Assembly (NCBI GenBank): GCA_902765395.1
Contig: CACWZP010000020.1
Span: 1 to 57,405 of the forward strand
Direction of reading: 5' to 3'
From: an uncultured Eubacteriales bacterium
GTDB lineage: Bacteria > Bacillota > Clostridia > Christensenellales > Aristaeellaceae
Length of the DNA stretch: 57,405 nt
The notes under the pieces were generated by a model. The model was given only the letters and a program-made list of their open reading frames with translations, searched no databases and was not told the origin of the DNA. The position numbers and the translations under genes were made by a program. This document shows, piece after piece, positions 5,149 through 19,958 of this stretch (the first letter of the stretch is position 1; each line of letters starts with the position of its first letter).

Positions 5149-6717
5149 ATGGCGTTGCTGCGCATCGGCGGCTTCAACCTGGGCAAGAAGCGGGAGGAGC
5201 TGCTGCAGAGCTACGAGGGCGAGGAGCCCTACATGCCCGGCGGATACGAGACCCCCGTTGACGGCGAGGAACCCTATCGCCCGGAGGGCTACGACGCGCC
5301 CTACGATGATTACGAGGACGATTACGGCTACGACGACGACTATGGCTATGACGACGGCTATGGCTATGACGACGACAGCCGATACGACGACGATTACGGC
5401 TACGACGAGGCCTACGGCTATGACGACGACGGGGACTATCCCCCCGAGGACGGCGGCTATCGCCGCGCGCCTTATTACGACGCGCCGGCCTATGAGCCCC
5501 GGTATCCCGACAACGGCATCGGCGACCTGCTGGATTACGTGGACGAGCACGAGTGGATCAACTGGCTGATGCTGTTCCTGGTGCCCCCGCTGGGCATCTG
5601 GATGCTGTGGCGCCGGAAGCGCTTCGTGCAGAGCACCAACATACTGCTCACCGCGCTCAGCCTGCTGTGGCTGCTGGCGGTGATCATCCTGCTGTTCGTG
5701 CGGCCGTTCCGCGCCCGGACCGATACCACCATCACGCCCCAGCCCGTGGGCGCGGCGGCGCTGCCCACCGAGGCGCCCGTCGAGGAAGCGGAGCCGGAGG
5801 CGACGGAGGCCGTGGTGGTGCCCGCCGAGGAGGTGGACGAGGCCAACGCGGTGTACACCGTCAGCGGCGCGCCCTGGTACCACCAGAACGCGGAGTGTTC
5901 GTTCATTCCCGGCGGCTCGGAGACCAACCGCATCGCCCGCAACACCGCAGTGGAGCAGAGCATGCTGGCCTGCCCCTACTGCCTGGCCAGCCAGTACAGC
6001 GACGGCCTGTGGGACCTGGTGTTCGTCAACGGCGCCACCGAGGACCGCAGCGGCATGAAGGTGTATTGCTCCACCTACAACACCTACTTCCACACCAAGG
6101 CCGACTGCAGCGACCTGGGCGGCGACGCCCAGGAGGTGGGCCTGAAGGAAGCCCTGCTGATGGGCCGGGCCGCCTGCGAGAAGTGCTGCCCCGACGCGGG
6201 CCGCGAGGTGTTCTGCACGAAGGACGGCACCTATTACCACGTGGAGGACGAGTGCTCCGGCATGCGCAACGCCAGCAAGGTGACCTATGCCGAGGCGCGG
6301 GTCACCGGCAAGAAGCGCTGCCCGGTCTGCATCGGCGGCGTGGACGAGGCCGAGGAGGCGGCGGAGGCCGCGCTGAACGCCGAGACGGAGGCCGCGGCGC
6401 AGGCGTCCAGCGGTTACTATGTCTATGCCACGCCCAACGGCACCTATTATCACGTGAATTCCACCTGCTCCGGCATGCGGGACGCCCAGCAGGTGCTGCT
6501 CTCGGACATGCTGAAGGCGAAGCGCCCGGCCTGCCCGGTGTGCTGCCCCAACGCGGAGAGCACCGTGTTCGCCCAGAGCGGCAACCCGTATTACCACTCC
6601 TATGCCACCTGCTCCGGCATGGACAACGCCACCCAGGGCATCCTGGTGAACGCGCTGGCCGCCGGGCTGAAGCAGTGCCCCGTGTGCTGGACCAGCACCG
6701 CGGGGGGAGACAGCTGA
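5149..6717 (+). CDS. Membrane protein with five Ada-like HCCC modules
   Basis: 522 residues, starting at the ATG after aaaggggtgaaatac. Residues ~25-115 are an acidic, Tyr/Gly/Asp-rich low-complexity tract with repeated DDYGYDD. Residues ~138-187 hold two adjacent hydrophobic segments (WLMLFLVPPLGIWML and TALSLLWLLAVIILLFV) separated by RRKR. After a Pro/Glu linker come five tandem units of ~45-60 residues with the pattern YYH-x5-C-SGM...A..G...CPxC (units begin near residues 240, 303, 350, 423 and 471). This pattern resembles the zinc-binding fold of Ada's N-terminal domain as found as a tail on many secreted nucleases (YH..C....A...G..PC..C). The first unit is the most divergent. The function is not recognised; surface-exposed metal-binding repeats are the best description. 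Confidence 0.7.
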   Translation: MALLRIGGFNLGKKREELLQSYEGEEPYMPGGYETPVDGEEPYRPEGYDAPYDDYEDDYGYDDDYGYDDGYGYDDDSRYDDDYGYDEAYGYDDDGDYPPEDGGYRRAPYYDAPAYEPRYPDNGIGDLLDYVDEHEWINWLMLFLVPPLGIWMLWRRKRFVQSTNILLTALSLLWLLAVIILLFVRPFRARTDTTITPQPVGAAALPTEAPVEEAEPEATEAVVVPAEEVDEANAVYTVSGAPWYHQNAECSFIPGGSETNRIARNTAVEQSMLACPYCLASQYSDGLWDLVFVNGATEDRSGMKVYCSTYNTYFHTKADCSDLGGDAQEVGLKEALLMGRAACEKCCPDAGREVFCTKDGTYYHVEDECSGMRNASKVTYAEARVTGKKRCPVCIGGVDEAEEAAEAALNAETEAAAQASSGYYVYATPNGTYYHVNSTCSGMRDAQQVLLSDMLKAKRPACPVCCPNAESTVFAQSGNPYYHSYATCSGMDNATQGILVNALAAGLKQCPVCWTSTAGGDS

Positions 6718-10665: not shown

Positions 10666-10912
10666 CAAAAAGCATCCGTCCCCCCATGGGACGAATGCTT
10701 CATTCGCGGTACCACCCAAATTGGCATATCGAAAGAATATGCCCGCTTGTGTGCGCTGTAACGGGCGCGCCCGGCGGGGCCTAATGGCAAACTGCGTTCA
10801 GCCCGACGGCTCCGGGAGGATACCCCTCTATGGCGGCCCCCGGACTTGCACCAACCTCCGGTTCGCTTCGCGCCGCTGGATAAAGGGCGGTTCCCATCAT
10901 CACCGATGATAT
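10666..10912 (-). promoter_or_regulatory. T-box riboswitch controlling ileS
   Basis: The minus strand shows the invariant T-box core gggtggtaccgcg (complement of 10705-10717), followed by an intrinsic terminator aagcattcgtccc/gggacggatgctt plus T-run (10666-10700). Upstream are stem I-like sequences (ggtgcaagtccgg, ctcccggagccg) and a gcccgttacagcgc segment. Uncharged tRNA-Ile pairing to the core would favour the antiterminator. An ATC triplet at 10819-10821 (minus) in ggggtatcctcc is a candidate specifier codon; a second ATC at about 10878 is an alternative, so the specifier assignment is tentative. Confidence 0.92.
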
Positions 10913-16341: not shown

Positions 16342-17163
16342 TCAGTCAATCTTGCCGCCCTCGACCACCAGGTTGTCGGGGTCGACCGCGTCGCCGTAGA
16401 CCTCCTTCAGGGTGGCGTCATAGTCGGCGTGGAAGAACTGCTCCTCCGCCAGCTTTTCGATCTCCTCGTTGATGAAGGCCAGCACGGTGTCGTTGCCCTT
16501 CTGCACGGCGGGGGCGATGGTGTCCAGGCTGCCCAGGGTCTCGATGCCAACGGTGAAGCCGGGGTTGTCGATGGCCCAGGCCAGCACCTCGGTGTTGTCG
16601 GTGGACAGGGCGTCGCCGCGGCCGTCCAGCAGGGCGTTGAAGGTCTCGGTGTAGGTGTCGTACTTCTGCAGGACGACCTCCGGCTCGTTGGCGGTGAACC
16701 AGGTCTCGGCGGTGGTGCCCTTGGAGACGATCAGGGTCTTGCCCCGCAGGTCCTCGACGCTGGTGATCAGCGCATCGTCCGGGCTGACCACGCCCAGGGC
16801 CACCTTCATGTAGGGCAGCGCAAAGTCAACCACTTCGGCGCGCTCGGGGGTGACGGTGAAGTTGGCCAGGATGATGTCCACCTTGGCGCTGGTCAGGTAC
16901 TCCACCCGGTTGGGGGCGTCCACGCTCACCAGCTCCAGCTCCACGCCCAGGTCCTCCGCCAGGCGGCGGGCGAAGTAGACGTCATAGCCCTGGTATTCGC
17001 CGTTCTCGTCCACGTAGCCAAAGGGCTTCTTGTCGCTGAACACGCCGATGGTCAGCGTGCCGGATTCCACGATTTCGTCCAGGGTGCGGGCCTTGGCGTC
17101 CGCCAGCGCGGCGGGGATCAGGGCGATGGCCAGAACCAGGATCAGTGCAAACAGCTTCTTCAT
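16342..17163 (-). CDS. Polar amino-acid ABC transporter substrate-binding protein (probably cyst(e)ine)
   Basis: 273 residues of the SBP_bac_3 family (TLTIGVFSDKKPFGYVDENGEYQGYDVYFARRLAEDLG..., split motif GTLTIGVF and PFGYVDENGEYQGYD). The start is MKKLFAL after aaaggagagatcatc; a longer reading to 17463 passes through leader sequence and is rejected. Residues 1-20 are a signal peptide ending PAALADA with no lipobox Cys, unusual for a monoderm. It is downstream of a promoter, a Cys-rich leader ORF and an attenuator. With the ATPase and permeases upstream it completes one importer. Cyst(e)ine as substrate is inferred from the leader peptides, not from the binding site. Confidence 0.85.
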   Translation of the reverse strand: MKKLFALILVLAIALIPAALADAKARTLDEIVESGTLTIGVFSDKKPFGYVDENGEYQGYDVYFARRLAEDLGVELELVSVDAPNRVEYLTSAKVDIILANFTVTPERAEVVDFALPYMKVALGVVSPDDALITSVEDLRGKTLIVSKGTTAETWFTANEPEVVLQKYDTYTETFNALLDGRGDALSTDNTEVLAWAIDNPGFTVGIETLGSLDTIAPAVQKGNDTVLAFINEEIEKLAEEQFFHADYDATLKEVYGDAVDPDNLVVEGGKID

Positions 17164-17230: not shown

Positions 17231-17284
17231 ATATAAACAAACGGAGCGGAATGGTCGACTCGCGTCGTCCGCTCCGCTCCGTTT
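17231..17284 (-). terminator. Leader attenuator upstream of the substrate-binding protein gene
   Basis: On the minus strand, arms aaacggagcgga (17273-17284) and tccgctccgttt (17239-17250) form a 12-bp stem, followed by gtttatata. A gcgtcg in the leader ORF (17338-17343) is complementary to cgacgc (17262-17267) in the 5' side of this structure, so an alternative fold is possible. Confidence 0.65.
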
Positions 17285-17312
17285 GGATATATCGAAGGTT
17301 CGTTGGAACACG

Positions 17313-17390
17313 TCAATATGACCGGCAGGGCATCGGGCGACGCTGTCGGCACATACAACACAGGCTCTGAACATGGAAGAAATGCTTCAC
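17313..17390 (-). CDS. Cys-rich leader peptide 1 (25 aa)
   Basis: GTG start 8 nt after aggagg, 25 codons, then TGA. The peptide contains C11-C12-M13-C14 and C22, that is four Cys codons (TGT TGT ATG TGC ... TGC) in a basic context (CRQRRPMPCR). It lies between a consensus promoter and a terminator-like hairpin, before the SBP gene. The arrangement matches ribosome-mediated attenuation in which Cys-tRNA supply controls read-through. It is too short for normal gene calls and starts with GTG. Confidence 0.65.
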   Translation of the reverse strand: MKHFFHVQSLCCMCRQRRPMPCRSY

Positions 17391-17434
17391 GGGGCCGCCC
17401 TCCTTTCACTACAGTTTTTGTAGGAATTGCCAAC

Positions 17435-17463
17435 ATTATAATGCGGAGCGGGAAAGTTGTCAA
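17435..17463 (-). promoter_or_regulatory. Consensus sigma-A promoter of leader 1 and the SBP gene
   Basis: Minus strand: ttgaca (17458-17463), 17-nt spacer, tataat (17435-17440): both hexamers are perfect consensus. It begins 27 nt beyond the stop of the ATPase gene, so the SBP is a separate transcription unit. Confidence 0.9.
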
Positions 17464-17489
17464 TGGGTTCGCGGGAAATTAACAATTTA

Positions 17490-18239
17490 CTATTTCACCG
17501 CGTCGAACTCGAAGGTATCCAGGAACTGGCGGGCGCGGTCGGTCCGGGGGTTGTGGAAGAACTCCCTGGGCGGGGCTTCCTCCAGCACGCTGCCGCCCTC
17601 CAGGAACAGCACCCGGTCGGCCACGGCCTCGGCGAAGCGCATCTCGTGGGTGACGATCATCATGGTCATGCCGTCCCGGGCCAGGTCCAGCACCACGTTC
17701 AGCACCTCGCGCACCATCTCCGGGTCCAGCGCGGCGGTGATCTCGTCCAGCAGCAAGAGCCTTGGGTGCATCAGCATGGCCCGCACCAGCGCCACGCGCT
17801 GCTTCTGGCCGCCGGACAGCTGGCGGGGCAGGGCGTGCAGCTTCTCGGCCAGGCCCACGCGCTCCAGCGCCTTTTCCGCCTCGGCCTCCACCTCCAGGCG
17901 GGGCCGCTTCATGGCCTGCACCGGGCCCAGGGTCAGATTGCCCAGCACGTCCATGTGGGGGAACAGGTCGTAGCTCTGGAACACCATGCCCACCTGGCGG
18001 CGCACCTGCACCAGGTCCGCGCCGGCGTCGATGCGCGCCCCGTCCAACAGGATCTCGCCGCCGTCCGGGCGCTCCAGCCCGTTCACGCACCGCAGCAGCG
18101 TGCTCTTGCCGCAGCCGCTGGGGCCCACCACCACGATCACCTCGCCCTCCGCCAGCGTGAACGACACGTCCTTCAACACGCCGTTGCCGTCGAAGTGCTT
18201 GCTCAGGTGTTTGACTTCCAAGATGGGTTGGTTGCTCAT
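17490..18239 (-). CDS. Polar amino-acid ABC transporter ATP-binding protein
   Basis: 249 residues of the HisP/GlnQ subfamily that powers polar amino-acid uptake. Walker A is GPSGCGKST, the Q-loop MVFQSYDLFPHM, the signature LSGGQKQRVALVRA and Walker B LLLLDEITAALDPE, with switch His in VTHEM. The start is the ATG after aggagcgatcc; an upstream in-frame start would translate the palindromic repeat at 18255-18413 and is rejected. Third gene of the permease-permease-ATPase unit driven from 19930-19958. Confidence 0.93.
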   Translation of the reverse strand: MSNQPILEVKHLSKHFDGNGVLKDVSFTLAEGEVIVVVGPSGCGKSTLLRCVNGLERPDGGEILLDGARIDAGADLVQVRRQVGMVFQSYDLFPHMDVLGNLTLGPVQAMKRPRLEVEAEAEKALERVGLAEKLHALPRQLSGGQKQRVALVRAMLMHPRLLLLDEITAALDPEMVREVLNVVLDLARDGMTMMIVTHEMRFAEAVADRVLFLEGGSVLEEAPPREFFHNPRTDRARQFLDTFEFDAVK

Positions 18240-18254
18240 ATGGATCGCTCCTGT

Positions 18255-18413
18255 ATGTGTCAATGAGGAATTATGAATTAGGAATGAGGAATTCCGGAGG
18301 AAATCCTTGCGGATTTCTGGAATTGAAACGAGGAGCGACCATGAAATCAATCAAATCCGTCAGGATTTGTACCGCCATTCCTCATTCCTCATTTCTCATT
18401 CCTGATTGTTTAC
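18255..18413. repeat. Palindromic GGAATGA element inside the ABC operon
   Basis: Left end aatgaggaattatgaattagg with aatgaggaattccgg; right end cgccattcctcattcctcat and ttctcattcctgatt. The centre has hairpins aaatccttgcggattt and aaatccgtcaggattt. This is the second copy of the element at 10545-10665. It separates the permease and ATPase genes of one operon and covers the permease gene's last few bases. Confidence 0.75.
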
Positions 18414-19078
18414 GCCCATTTCTTCTCCAGCCTTCCCGCCACCAGCGAAATCGGCCAGCAGGCGAGGAAGTAGAGGAAGAACACCACGGCATAGATCCAG
18501 ACCGCGGCCTGGGGGGCGTCGTAGCGGTTGGCGTCGATGATCTGGCTGCCCACCTTTAAAACCTCCACCACGCCGATCAGCATTACCAGCGAGGTGGTCT
18601 TGATCATGCGGGTGGCCAGGTTGATGGCCTGGGGCAGCAGCCGCCGGGCCGCCTGGGGCAGCAGCACGTATTGCCAGCACTGCCGGCTGGTCAGCCCCAG
18701 GGCCGCGCTGCTCTCCCGCTGGTGGACGGGGATGGACGTGATCGCGCCGCGCACCAGATCGCCCATCTCGCCCGCGCCCCAGAACGTGAACACCGCCACG
18801 GCGGCGGTCTCGCCGGAGATCTGGATGTTGAAGGCCTTGGCCAGGCCGAAGTAGACCAGGAACAGCAGCACCAGCTGGGGCACGATGCGCACCGTCTCCA
18901 GCCAGAGCCGGAAGAAGGCCCGCACCACGGGGTTCTTCAGCGTCATCAGCGCGCCGACCACCAGCCCCAGCGCCACGGACAGCGCCACCGAGAGCAGCGA
19001 CAGCTTCAGCGTCACGCCCAGGCCACCCAGCAGCCGCGCCAGGTTATTGCCCTTGAACAGCACCGCCAAATCCTGCAT
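18410..19078 (-). CDS. Polar amino-acid ABC transporter permease 2
   Basis: 222 residues of the HisM/GlnP family, with about five transmembrane segments and the cytoplasmic EAA-like loop (SSAALGLTSRQCWQYVLLPQAARRLLP). The N-terminus starts MQDLAVLFKGNN, and its first 35 nt overlap the end of permease 1, implying translational coupling. With permease 1 it would form the heterodimeric channel of the importer. The C-terminal end meets the palindromic repeat. Confidence 0.92.
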   Translation of the reverse strand: MQDLAVLFKGNNLARLLGGLGVTLKLSLLSVALSVALGLVVGALMTLKNPVVRAFFRLWLETVRIVPQLVLLFLVYFGLAKAFNIQISGETAAVAVFTFWGAGEMGDLVRGAITSIPVHQRESSAALGLTSRQCWQYVLLPQAARRLLPQAINLATRMIKTTSLVMLIGVVEVLKVGSQIIDANRYDAPQAAVWIYAVVFFLYFLACWPISLVAGRLEKKWA

Positions 19079-19718
19079 AGCGCAGCCTCCTTTCCCACAC
19101 AGAGAACACGATGGAGATGGGCAGCAGCAGCGTCAGGTAGGCCACCGTCAGCATCAAAAGCGCCTCGTCCGTCTTGTAGTACATGCCGATCAGGTCCTTG
19201 GCCACGTACATCAGGTCCGCCAGGGCCACGGCGCTGAACACGCTGGTCTCCTTGATCAGGAAGATGGCGTTGGCGCCGATGGCCGGGATGGCCGTGGCCA
19301 GCGCCTGGGGCAGGATCACGAAGCGCAGGTTCTGAAGGGGCGTCAGCCCGATGCACATGCCGGATTCCGCCTGGCCCCGGTCCACGGCCTCCAGGCCGCT
19401 GCGCAGCGCCTCGGCCATGTAGGCCCCGCCCAGGAACGTGAGCCCCGTGATGGCGCAAGTCTCCGCGCTCAGCTTCACGCCCACCTTGGGCAGGCCGAAG
19501 TACAGGAAGAACAGCTGCACCAGCAGGGGGGTGTTGCGGGCCAGCTCGATATAGACCGCCGCGACCTGCTTGAGCACCGGCACGCGGAAGTACTTCGCCA
19601 GGCAGCACAGCGCGCCGACGACCAGCGACAGCGCGATGCCGATCAGGCCGATGCGCAGCGTCAGCCCCGCGGCCTTTGCGTACATCGGCGCGAAGCGCTG
19701 GATAAAGTCGAAGTCCAT
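19044..19718 (-). CDS. Polar amino-acid ABC transporter permease 1
   Basis: 224 residues of the HisQ/GlnP family with about five transmembrane helices. Typical motifs are IELARNTPLLVQLFFLYFG and the coupling loop SGMCIGLTPLQNLRFVILPQALA. The start is ATG at 19718 after gaaggga; the open frame extends up to 19958 through the leader, but that part overlaps a leader ORF and terminator and is rejected as coding. First structural gene of the unit; expression should depend on read-through of the attenuator at 19778-19804. Confidence 0.92.
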   Translation of the reverse strand: MDFDFIQRFAPMYAKAAGLTLRIGLIGIALSLVVGALCCLAKYFRVPVLKQVAAVYIELARNTPLLVQLFFLYFGLPKVGVKLSAETCAITGLTFLGGAYMAEALRSGLEAVDRGQAESGMCIGLTPLQNLRFVILPQALATAIPAIGANAIFLIKETSVFSAVALADLMYVAKDLIGMYYKTDEALLMLTVAYLTLLLPISIVFSVWERRLRYAGFGGAVQGQ

Positions 19719-19777
19719 GGGATCAGTCCCTTCGGTTGCTTGGGTATCGTATGCGCGGGCCGGGTGCTGCGCGCCAT

Positions 19778-19804
19778 AAAAAACAGCGGCCTCCTGGGCC
19801 GCTG
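19778..19804 (-). terminator. Leader attenuator upstream of permease 1
   Basis: On the minus strand cagcggccc-agga-ggccgctg followed by six T: a strong intrinsic terminator that stands 60 nt before the permease start and 28 nt after the leader ORF stop, so it cannot be a normal end-of-gene signal. A gcggcc within the Cys-codon region (19850-19855) repeats the stem sequence and could compete for the 3' arm. Confidence 0.85.
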
Positions 19805-19831
19805 GCGTGTGTTTGGGGTATCGGGGCGGCG

Positions 19832-19903
19832 TCAGGACATGGCAAAGCAGGCCGCGCAACAACACGCCGCCATGTTCACGCGCATCCAGCTTGTAAACGC
19901 CAT
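19832..19903 (-). CDS. Cys-rich leader peptide 2 (23 aa)
   Basis: ATG start 8 nt after gggagg, 23 codons, TGA stop. Three consecutive Cys codons (TGT TGT TGC, C14-C16) and a further Cys at position 19 occur in AACCCAACFAMS. It lies between a promoter and a strong terminator that precede the permease genes. Triple-Cys leader peptides are known in actinobacteria, where they attenuate cysteine genes; here the same logic would make transport of cyst(e)ine depend on Cys-tRNA charging. Leader 1 (17313-17390) is an unrelated sequence with the same Cys richness. Confidence 0.75.
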   Translation of the reverse strand: MAFTSWMRVNMAACCCAACFAMS

Positions 19904-19929
19904 GCTGAAAACCTCCCTTTTCGGTAGAT

Positions 19930-19958
19930 AGTATAGCGCGATGCTGGGGTTTTGTCAA
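19930..19958 (-). promoter_or_regulatory. Sigma-A promoter of leader 2 and the permease-ATPase operon
   Basis: Minus strand: ttgaca (19953-19958), 17-nt spacer, tatact (19930-19935), 27 nt before the leader ORF start. Confidence 0.88.

Follow-up and report, generated by a model that had tools for sequence, protein, structure and literature searches.

Cysteine-rich leader peptides with intrinsic terminators as probable attenuators of both units of a putative L-cysteine importer in a Clostridia bacterium

Results

Two leaders precede the two units of one importer

Sequence comparison and predicted RNA folds make it very probable that the two transcription units of one ATP-binding cassette (ABC) importer, whose substrate is likely to be L-cysteine, are each controlled by a classical ribosome-mediated transcription attenuator in which cysteine codons are the control codons. 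The importer genes lie on the minus strand of contig CACWZP010000020.1 (assembly GCA_902765395.1), positions 1 to 57,405 of which are called the window here; its source is a Clostridia bacterium whose relatives come from rumen and gut. One unit holds permease 1, permease 2 and the ATPase (19718-17490), and the other holds the solute-binding protein (17163-16342). A first-pass annotation of the window had described the same layout for both units, with a promoter, a ribosome-binding site, a Cys-rich open reading frame (ORF) of 23 to 25 codons and an intrinsic terminator, and all of these elements are present, as listed below together with the regions proposed to pair (SD, Shine-Dalgarno site).

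19930 to 19958, minus strand: promoter of the permease/ATPase unit, TTGACA-17-TATACT (sequence)
19832 to 19903, minus strand: leader ORF 1, 23 codons, ATG start, MAFTSWMRVNMAACCCAACFAMS; SD GGGAGG at 19912-19917
19856 to 19864, minus strand: putative control codons of leader 1, TGT TGT TGC (sequence)
19864 to 19871, minus strand: leader 1 region 1, GGCGGCGT, predicted by folding to pair with region 2 unless a ribosome is on the Cys codons; present in part of the genus only
19825 to 19836, minus strand: leader 1 region 2, CCTGACGCCGC/ACGCCGCC, around the leader stop codon; predicted partner, the terminator 5' arm at 19793-19802, GCGGCCCAGG (folding)
19778 to 19804, minus strand: intrinsic terminator 1, CAGCGGCCCAGGAGGCCGCTG, -15.3 kcal/mol, followed by a T-run (sequence and folding)
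19044 to 19718, minus strand: ABC permease 1 (Pfam PF00528)
18410 to 19078, minus strand: ABC permease 2 (Pfam PF00528)
17490 to 18239, minus strand: ABC ATPase (Pfam PF00005)
17435 to 17463, minus strand: promoter of the binding-protein unit, TTGACA-17-TATAAT (sequence)
17313 to 17390, minus strand: leader ORF 2, 25 codons, GTG start, MKHFFHVQSLCCMCRQRRPMPCRSY; SD AAAGGAGG at 17399-17406
17349 to 17360, minus strand: putative control codons of leader 2, TGT TGT ATG TGC (sequence)
17322 to 17343, minus strand: leader 2 region 2, GCGTCGCCCGATGCCCTGCCGG, proposed antiterminator strand, inside the leader ORF (folding)
17261 to 17284, minus strand: 5' arm and loop of terminator 2, predicted antiterminator partner of the leader 2 tail (folding)
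17231 to 17285, minus strand: intrinsic terminator 2, hairpin of -34.1 kcal/mol followed by TTTATAT (stem covariation)
16342 to 17163, minus strand: solute-binding protein, probable L-cysteine receptor (PF00497; structures 1xt8, E 4e-88, and 2yjp, 3e-76)

In the mechanism that we propose, RNA polymerase would transcribe a leader ORF carrying tandem UGU-UGU. When charged tRNA-Cys is ample, the ribosome would reach the stop codon and cover the leader tail, the terminator hairpin would form, and the structural genes would be off. Under a shortage of charged tRNA-Cys, the ribosome would stall on the Cys pair and leave the tail exposed; the tail would then pair with the 5' arm of the terminator ahead of synthesis of the 3' arm, allowing transcription to continue. 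The promoter-like sites, ORFs, terminators, conserved Cys pair, UGU bias and cognate pairing across genera are seen directly in the sequences; from them we infer translation of the leaders, stalling, the direction of the switch in the cell and a response to cysteine.

The Cys pair is the conserved feature of the leaders within the genus

Permease 1 was used to search 60 relatives, and the binding protein to search 28 genus genomes, which yielded for study 20 permease loci (19 from the genus and L027, from another genus) and 18 binding-protein loci, all from the genus. A Cys leader stands before all 18 binding-protein genes (more distantly, at -447, in L054) and before 16 of the 19 genus permease genes, and both leaders are found in 16 of the 18 genus genomes where both units were examined. 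Promoter-like sites with at least 9 of 12 matches lie upstream of the leader in 15 of 16 genus permease units and in all 17 binding-protein units counted. When the leaders were aligned, leader 1 (16 sequences) had only M1, C14 and C15 invariant, and leader 2 (18 sequences) had M1, C11, C12, R15 and P19, with a core, CCMCRxRRPxxCR, that is kept in most of the genus. Tandem Cys-Cys occurs in 34/34 aligned leaders and is, besides the start codon, the sole feature common to all, which bears out the earlier observation that the two leaders resemble each other in nothing but Cys content.

Short ORFs are common, and the Cys-rich ones might have arisen by chance in intergenic DNA. A strict criterion was applied, requiring an SD-preceded ORF of 10-45 amino acids within 350 nucleotides of the gene, with at least three Cys and a CC or CxC. 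Such ORFs precede 17 of 18 binding-protein genes and 10 of 20 permease genes of the genus set, where dinucleotide shuffles expect 0.15 and 0.28, respectively. In the family they precede 23 of 54 binding-protein genes and 15 of 51 permease-1 genes. Control starts inside the family operons gave 2/51 for permease 2, a figure that lends chance some credit, and 0/51 for the ATPase. No such ORF was found before 16 paralogous binding-protein genes or on the opposite strands of the genus and family sets, and the shuffle expectation ranged from 0.08 to 1.3 per set. With shuffles, opposite strands and control genes all at or near zero, a chance origin can practically be dismissed.

Leaders in other genera

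Of 300 family genomes, 72, representing 11 of 50 genera, contain a match to the binding protein at E<=1e-50, and the family comparison outside the genus covered 54 loci from 10 genera. For these loci a looser criterion was used (at least two Cys close together, an SD-like site, 12-46 codons and a terminator within 170 nucleotides), only the strict criterion being shuffle-controlled. A Cys leader with a terminator was found by the looser criterion in 40 of the 54 loci, behind which stand 29 binding-protein and 13 permease units, or in 38 once L135 and L147, whose terminator picks are doubtful, are removed. The comparative search upstream of orthologous importers that the first-pass annotation had proposed thus located Cys leaders in 9 of the 10 other genera, and this distribution, together with the conserved Cys pair, supports its view of ribosome-mediated Cys attenuation. 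The leader peptides of other genera are widely different from one another, for example MTMRCCMCLCSARPASRERCML, MKRQMMMCCCMCGSLRPSRRELCLR and MFTEKKIIILSTCCRMLISRACTMAGASACMCLRSE, and a further leader family, CCRMLISRAC, is shared by L153, L154, L158 and L160. A profile of leader 2 misses the leaders of other genera, which were located by synteny; of its weak matches in 100 family genomes, seven were read by eye and none was a leader. L113 and L155 have Cys leaders with weaker SD sites, which were recognized by eye after the fact and stand outside the counts.

A contig scan provided a more distant set, the best 80 of at least 582 loci. Twenty-five of these were recognized as contigs of the family set, and the other 55 are termed more distant, although some may belong to the family. 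Six of 50 permease units in the 55 loci have a leader by the strict criterion, where shuffles expect 0.75 and the opposite strand gave one; the same criterion gave none before 51 permease-2, 52 ATPase and 55 binding-protein genes. Two of the six, before permease 1 of L288 (Oribacterium) and L298 (a Lachnospiraceae metagenome-assembled genome), have seven consecutive Cys codons, and the looser criterion added a ten-residue ORF before the binding-protein gene of L282.

The Cys pair is written with a rare codon

In all, 75 units have an intrinsic terminator between the leader and the first gene, three of them with doubtful picks. Among the 65 leaders with a CC in these units, the pair opens with UGU in 61, and its second codon is UGU in 55. 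By comparison, the importer genes of the family loci use 47 UGU versus 373 UGC, and eleven ORFs of the window use 3 versus 49. Rare UGU control codons fit a starvation sensor, and reasons of RNA structure are also possible.

RNA pairing and the direction of the switch

Covariation supports the terminator stem in the binding-protein unit, where nine of 11 pairs are changed on both sides. None of 500 shuffles reached that number or matched the paired cells, double-change cells or covariation score, while the number of further pair types was reached by 45/500; slid versions of the stem were far lower. RNAalifold recovered the leader hairpin and this terminator from the binding-protein alignment and did not recover the antiterminator, a miss that we attribute to presumed misalignment of the clades. 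In the permease alignment without the terminator 3' arm, a GCCG:CGGC helix pairs the stop-codon region with the terminator arm in 16 of 16 sequences, one with a GU; these pairs hardly vary and so give no covariation proof. In the 18 genus loci, the leader 2 tail is predicted to form a duplex of -23.4 to -33.1 kcal/mol with the terminator arm and loop, and in L153, CTCCCGGGC of the leader matches GCCCGGGAG in the terminator arm with complete complementarity.

For pairing across genera and for folds in different ribosome states, 72 of the 75 units were used, with L135_SBP, L147_P1 and L018_perm dropped for bad terminator picks. Cognate tail-arm duplexes were stronger than swapped ones across genera (double-centred mean -3.3 kcal/mol, permutation p 5e-5, 20 non-redundant units), and a control with reversed arms gave p 0.18 (26 units). 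The ribosome-state folds were restricted to RNA lying downstream of the ribosome and stopped where the 5' half of the terminator ends. Mean pairing of the arm with the leader was 0.63 with the ribosome on the first Cys codon, 0.27 with the ribosome at the stop codon and 0.56 with no ribosome. Pairing in the Cys stall exceeded that without a ribosome in 54/72 units and that at the stop in 70/72, the latter figure depending on the masking of all upstream RNA, by which the stop state loses partners by construction. Because of these contrasts we favor a model in which the Cys stall is ON and full translation OFF. The first-pass annotation had left the direction of the switch open, and the folds with and without a ribosome on the Cys codons that it proposed suggest this answer.

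The dependence on masking weighs against attenuation in the direction described, as do several other results. When upstream RNA was left free to pair, the Cys stall exceeded the stop state in 45/72 units and the ribosome-free state in 29/72. The antiterminator is often predicted to form without a ribosome too, the means being as close as 0.56 and 0.63, and in 12 family permease units the ribosome-free value (0.60) is above that of the Cys stall (0.55). Since the units are related, Wilcoxon p values for these comparisons are non-independent. Within the genus, leader 2 tails and arms swapped between five clades pair as well as cognate ones, the true assignment ranking 22 of 120. Compared with synonymous recodings, only 9 of these 18 tails show better pairing with the arm at a fraction of <=0.03 (10 of 18 at <=0.05), and the window's own leader 2 tail is no stronger than its recodings (fraction 0.18).

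Some loci also lack a leader. The first-pass annotation had held that orthologues without Cys codons would speak against attenuation, and on this count the outcome is mostly in its favor: every aligned genus leader keeps the tandem Cys and most loci of other genera have a leader with a terminator, but permease units L013, L022 and L025 of the genus (three of 19) and L027 of the other genus have no leader, and 14 of the 54 family loci have no leader and terminator directly upstream by the looser criterion. In three of the 14 (L148, L161 and L163), the first gene of the operon is O-acetylhomoserine sulfhydrylase-like, and it is this gene that the Cys leader precedes; a TIGR01326 scan of L148 and L163 placed the head gene of both above the cut-off. 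In L013 too, the permease comes after a gene of the O-acetylhomoserine sulfhydrylase-like type, and a search of the 3 kb around it gave no Cys leader. The L124 permease is preceded by another gene, which we take to encode a pyridoxal phosphate (PLP)-enzyme-like protein, with no Cys-rich ORF in the 400 nucleotides upstream of it. A binding-protein match at E<=1e-50 is missing in 10 of the 28 genus genomes; one of these, G022, holds permease L022 and a 30-residue binding-protein fragment.

The substrate is likelier to be L-cysteine

Compared with solved structures, the binding protein is closest to 1xt8 (E 4e-88) and 2yjp (3e-76), followed by the next chain at 6e-36, and matches 2yln at 7e-16. 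We take 2yjp to be the L-cysteine receptor of Neisseria gonorrhoeae and 2yln to be a cystine receptor. The closest structure, 1xt8, is the cysteine-binding protein of Campylobacter jejuni (PMC4757695). Because the binding protein is nearest 1xt8 and far from 2yln, L-cysteine is the likelier substrate; of the earlier assignment to cystine or cysteine, the second part is upheld and the first appears less likely. The ATPase matched general family models only below their cut-offs and under mixed names (GlnQ, TcyN).

Discussion

Alternative explanations

The leaders might act through their peptides, with the nascent chain in the exit tunnel sensing free cysteine rather than charged tRNA-Cys, as TnaC does with tryptophan. 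The core of leader 2 conserved in most of the genus would suit such an arrest, and so would the nine of 18 genus tails that pair no better than synonymous recodings, since RNA pairing then leaves part of the conservation of the tail unexplained. However, leaders 1 and 2 have only the Cys pair in common beyond the start codon, and the peptides of other genera differ widely, so that we regard peptide arrest as unlikely. The ORFs might instead encode Cys-rich small proteins with a function of their own, such as metal or redox binding, in which case the terminators would do no more than set them apart from the importer genes. Such proteins would be expected to have a good SD site, a start codon and a Cys-rich composition, as these ORFs do, but sequence, length and Cys spacing are not kept and the position before the first gene of the importer operon mostly is, which makes this account more improbable still.

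Control by another RNA element, such as a T-box, an S-adenosylmethionine (SAM) riboswitch or an unknown aptamer, to which the ORFs would be incidental, seems just as improbable as independent small proteins. T-box control is available to this genome, which has 16 T-box matches, four of them over the cut-off. Another element would nonetheless leave the UGU bias and the conserved Cys pairs unexplained, and Rfam gave no match at gathering score in the window and no family at E<=0.01 in L001 and L009, which hold the two units. T-box or riboswitch control of the importer units was rejected as a candidate, the T-box structure not having been found and the Rfam searches being negative. Fifteen of the 55 more distant loci were also compared with Rfam, which yielded nothing beyond a tRNA and, in L258, a SAM riboswitch. 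Ribosome-mediated attenuation keyed to cysteine is the explanation that we retain.

Relation to known attenuators

Ribosome-mediated attenuators of amino-acid operons are classical, as in trp, his and ilv. Among Firmicutes, a His leader has been described for hisS/hisZ of bacilli (PMC2965389), and that paper states that before hisS in bacilli none was known outside Proteobacteria and Actinobacteria, the ermC leader aside. A later Firmicutes case is the leucine-rich attenuator peptide of Staphylococcus aureus ilv (PMC5794164; mentioned in PMC13009471). The leaders described here share with these systems an ORF with control codons and a terminator and, with the classical cases, a competing antiterminator, which is predicted here. 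They differ in that the amino acid is cysteine, that two unrelated leaders stand on two units of one importer, and that leader 2 has its proposed antiterminator strand within the ORF itself.

Polycysteine leaderless ORFs of mycobacteria are reportedly the subject of work by Canestrari in 2020; unlike these, the ORFs described here each have an SD sequence ahead of the start codon, with promoter-like sites beyond it. In actinobacterial cys operons, Cys leader peptides have been described with no conserved terminator hairpin (PMC1262725). Like ours, those leaders are short ORFs with consecutive Cys codons placed ahead of Cys genes; ours appear to be SD-led and to carry intrinsic terminators. Similar in design is uORFC-8-2 of Rhodobacterales cysS, for which tandem Cys codons in a leader ORF, two stems and a terminal U-run are given and ribosome-mediated attenuation is proposed (PMC8632094). 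As described there, that element is alphaproteobacterial, precedes cysS and has UGC dominant, whereas the present leaders are from Clostridia, precede an importer and have UGU dominant in the pair. We recognized no description of Cys attenuation in Clostridia or other Firmicutes among the matches listed, all of them open-licence papers, and the word cysteine is absent from the main text of PMC11109978 and PMC6429828 as far as retrieved. The mechanism itself is classical, and the amino acid, the lineage and the doubled leaders look new.

If the proposal is right, cysteine would be a new addition to the amino acids that Firmicutes sense through leader peptides, here in a genome with T-boxes as well, and an ATPase with an ambiguous GlnQ/TcyN-like annotation would be placed in a probable L-cysteine importer. 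With two leaders of unrelated sequence and a preference for UGU, the system would also offer a clean test of how the choice of control codon and the strength of the terminator affect the response. A broader idea, which we put forward tentatively and with rather more doubt than belief, is that Cys leader attenuation is a widespread and repeatedly rewritten control of Clostridia cysteine importers, in which the peptide is disposable, only the rare UGU codons and the complementarity of tail and terminator are kept, and each new operon head gains a leader. On this view the membrane complex and the binding protein would respond at different cysteine thresholds, set by the two leaders and their terminators (about -15 and about -34 kcal/mol in the window), and the response would have two steps.

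Other observations

A cysteine regulon extending across the genus was considered and rejected: in six genus genomes, no convincing Cys leader was found before 12 O-acetylhomoserine sulfhydrylase, seven cysK and six cysS matches. In that survey L196 proved to be a fragment with a badly placed start, and a two-Cys ORF before L186 was judged to be due to chance.

The SAM riboswitch of L258, from Pectinatus frisingensis, lies at positions 5300-5398 of that locus, downstream of the binding-protein gene. The window has a T-box at 10684-10909 on the minus strand, with 92 bits just under the cut-off of 93, and the ORF that follows it is presumably isoleucyl-tRNA synthetase-like. Seven of the 16 T-box matches in the genome precede what we take to be aminoacyl-tRNA synthetase genes. 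Between the permease 2 and ATPase genes, at 18255-18410, is an inverted-repeat element with arms of 56 nucleotides; given its 93 matches in the genome, both strands counted, it is a dispersed palindromic repeat within the importer operon.

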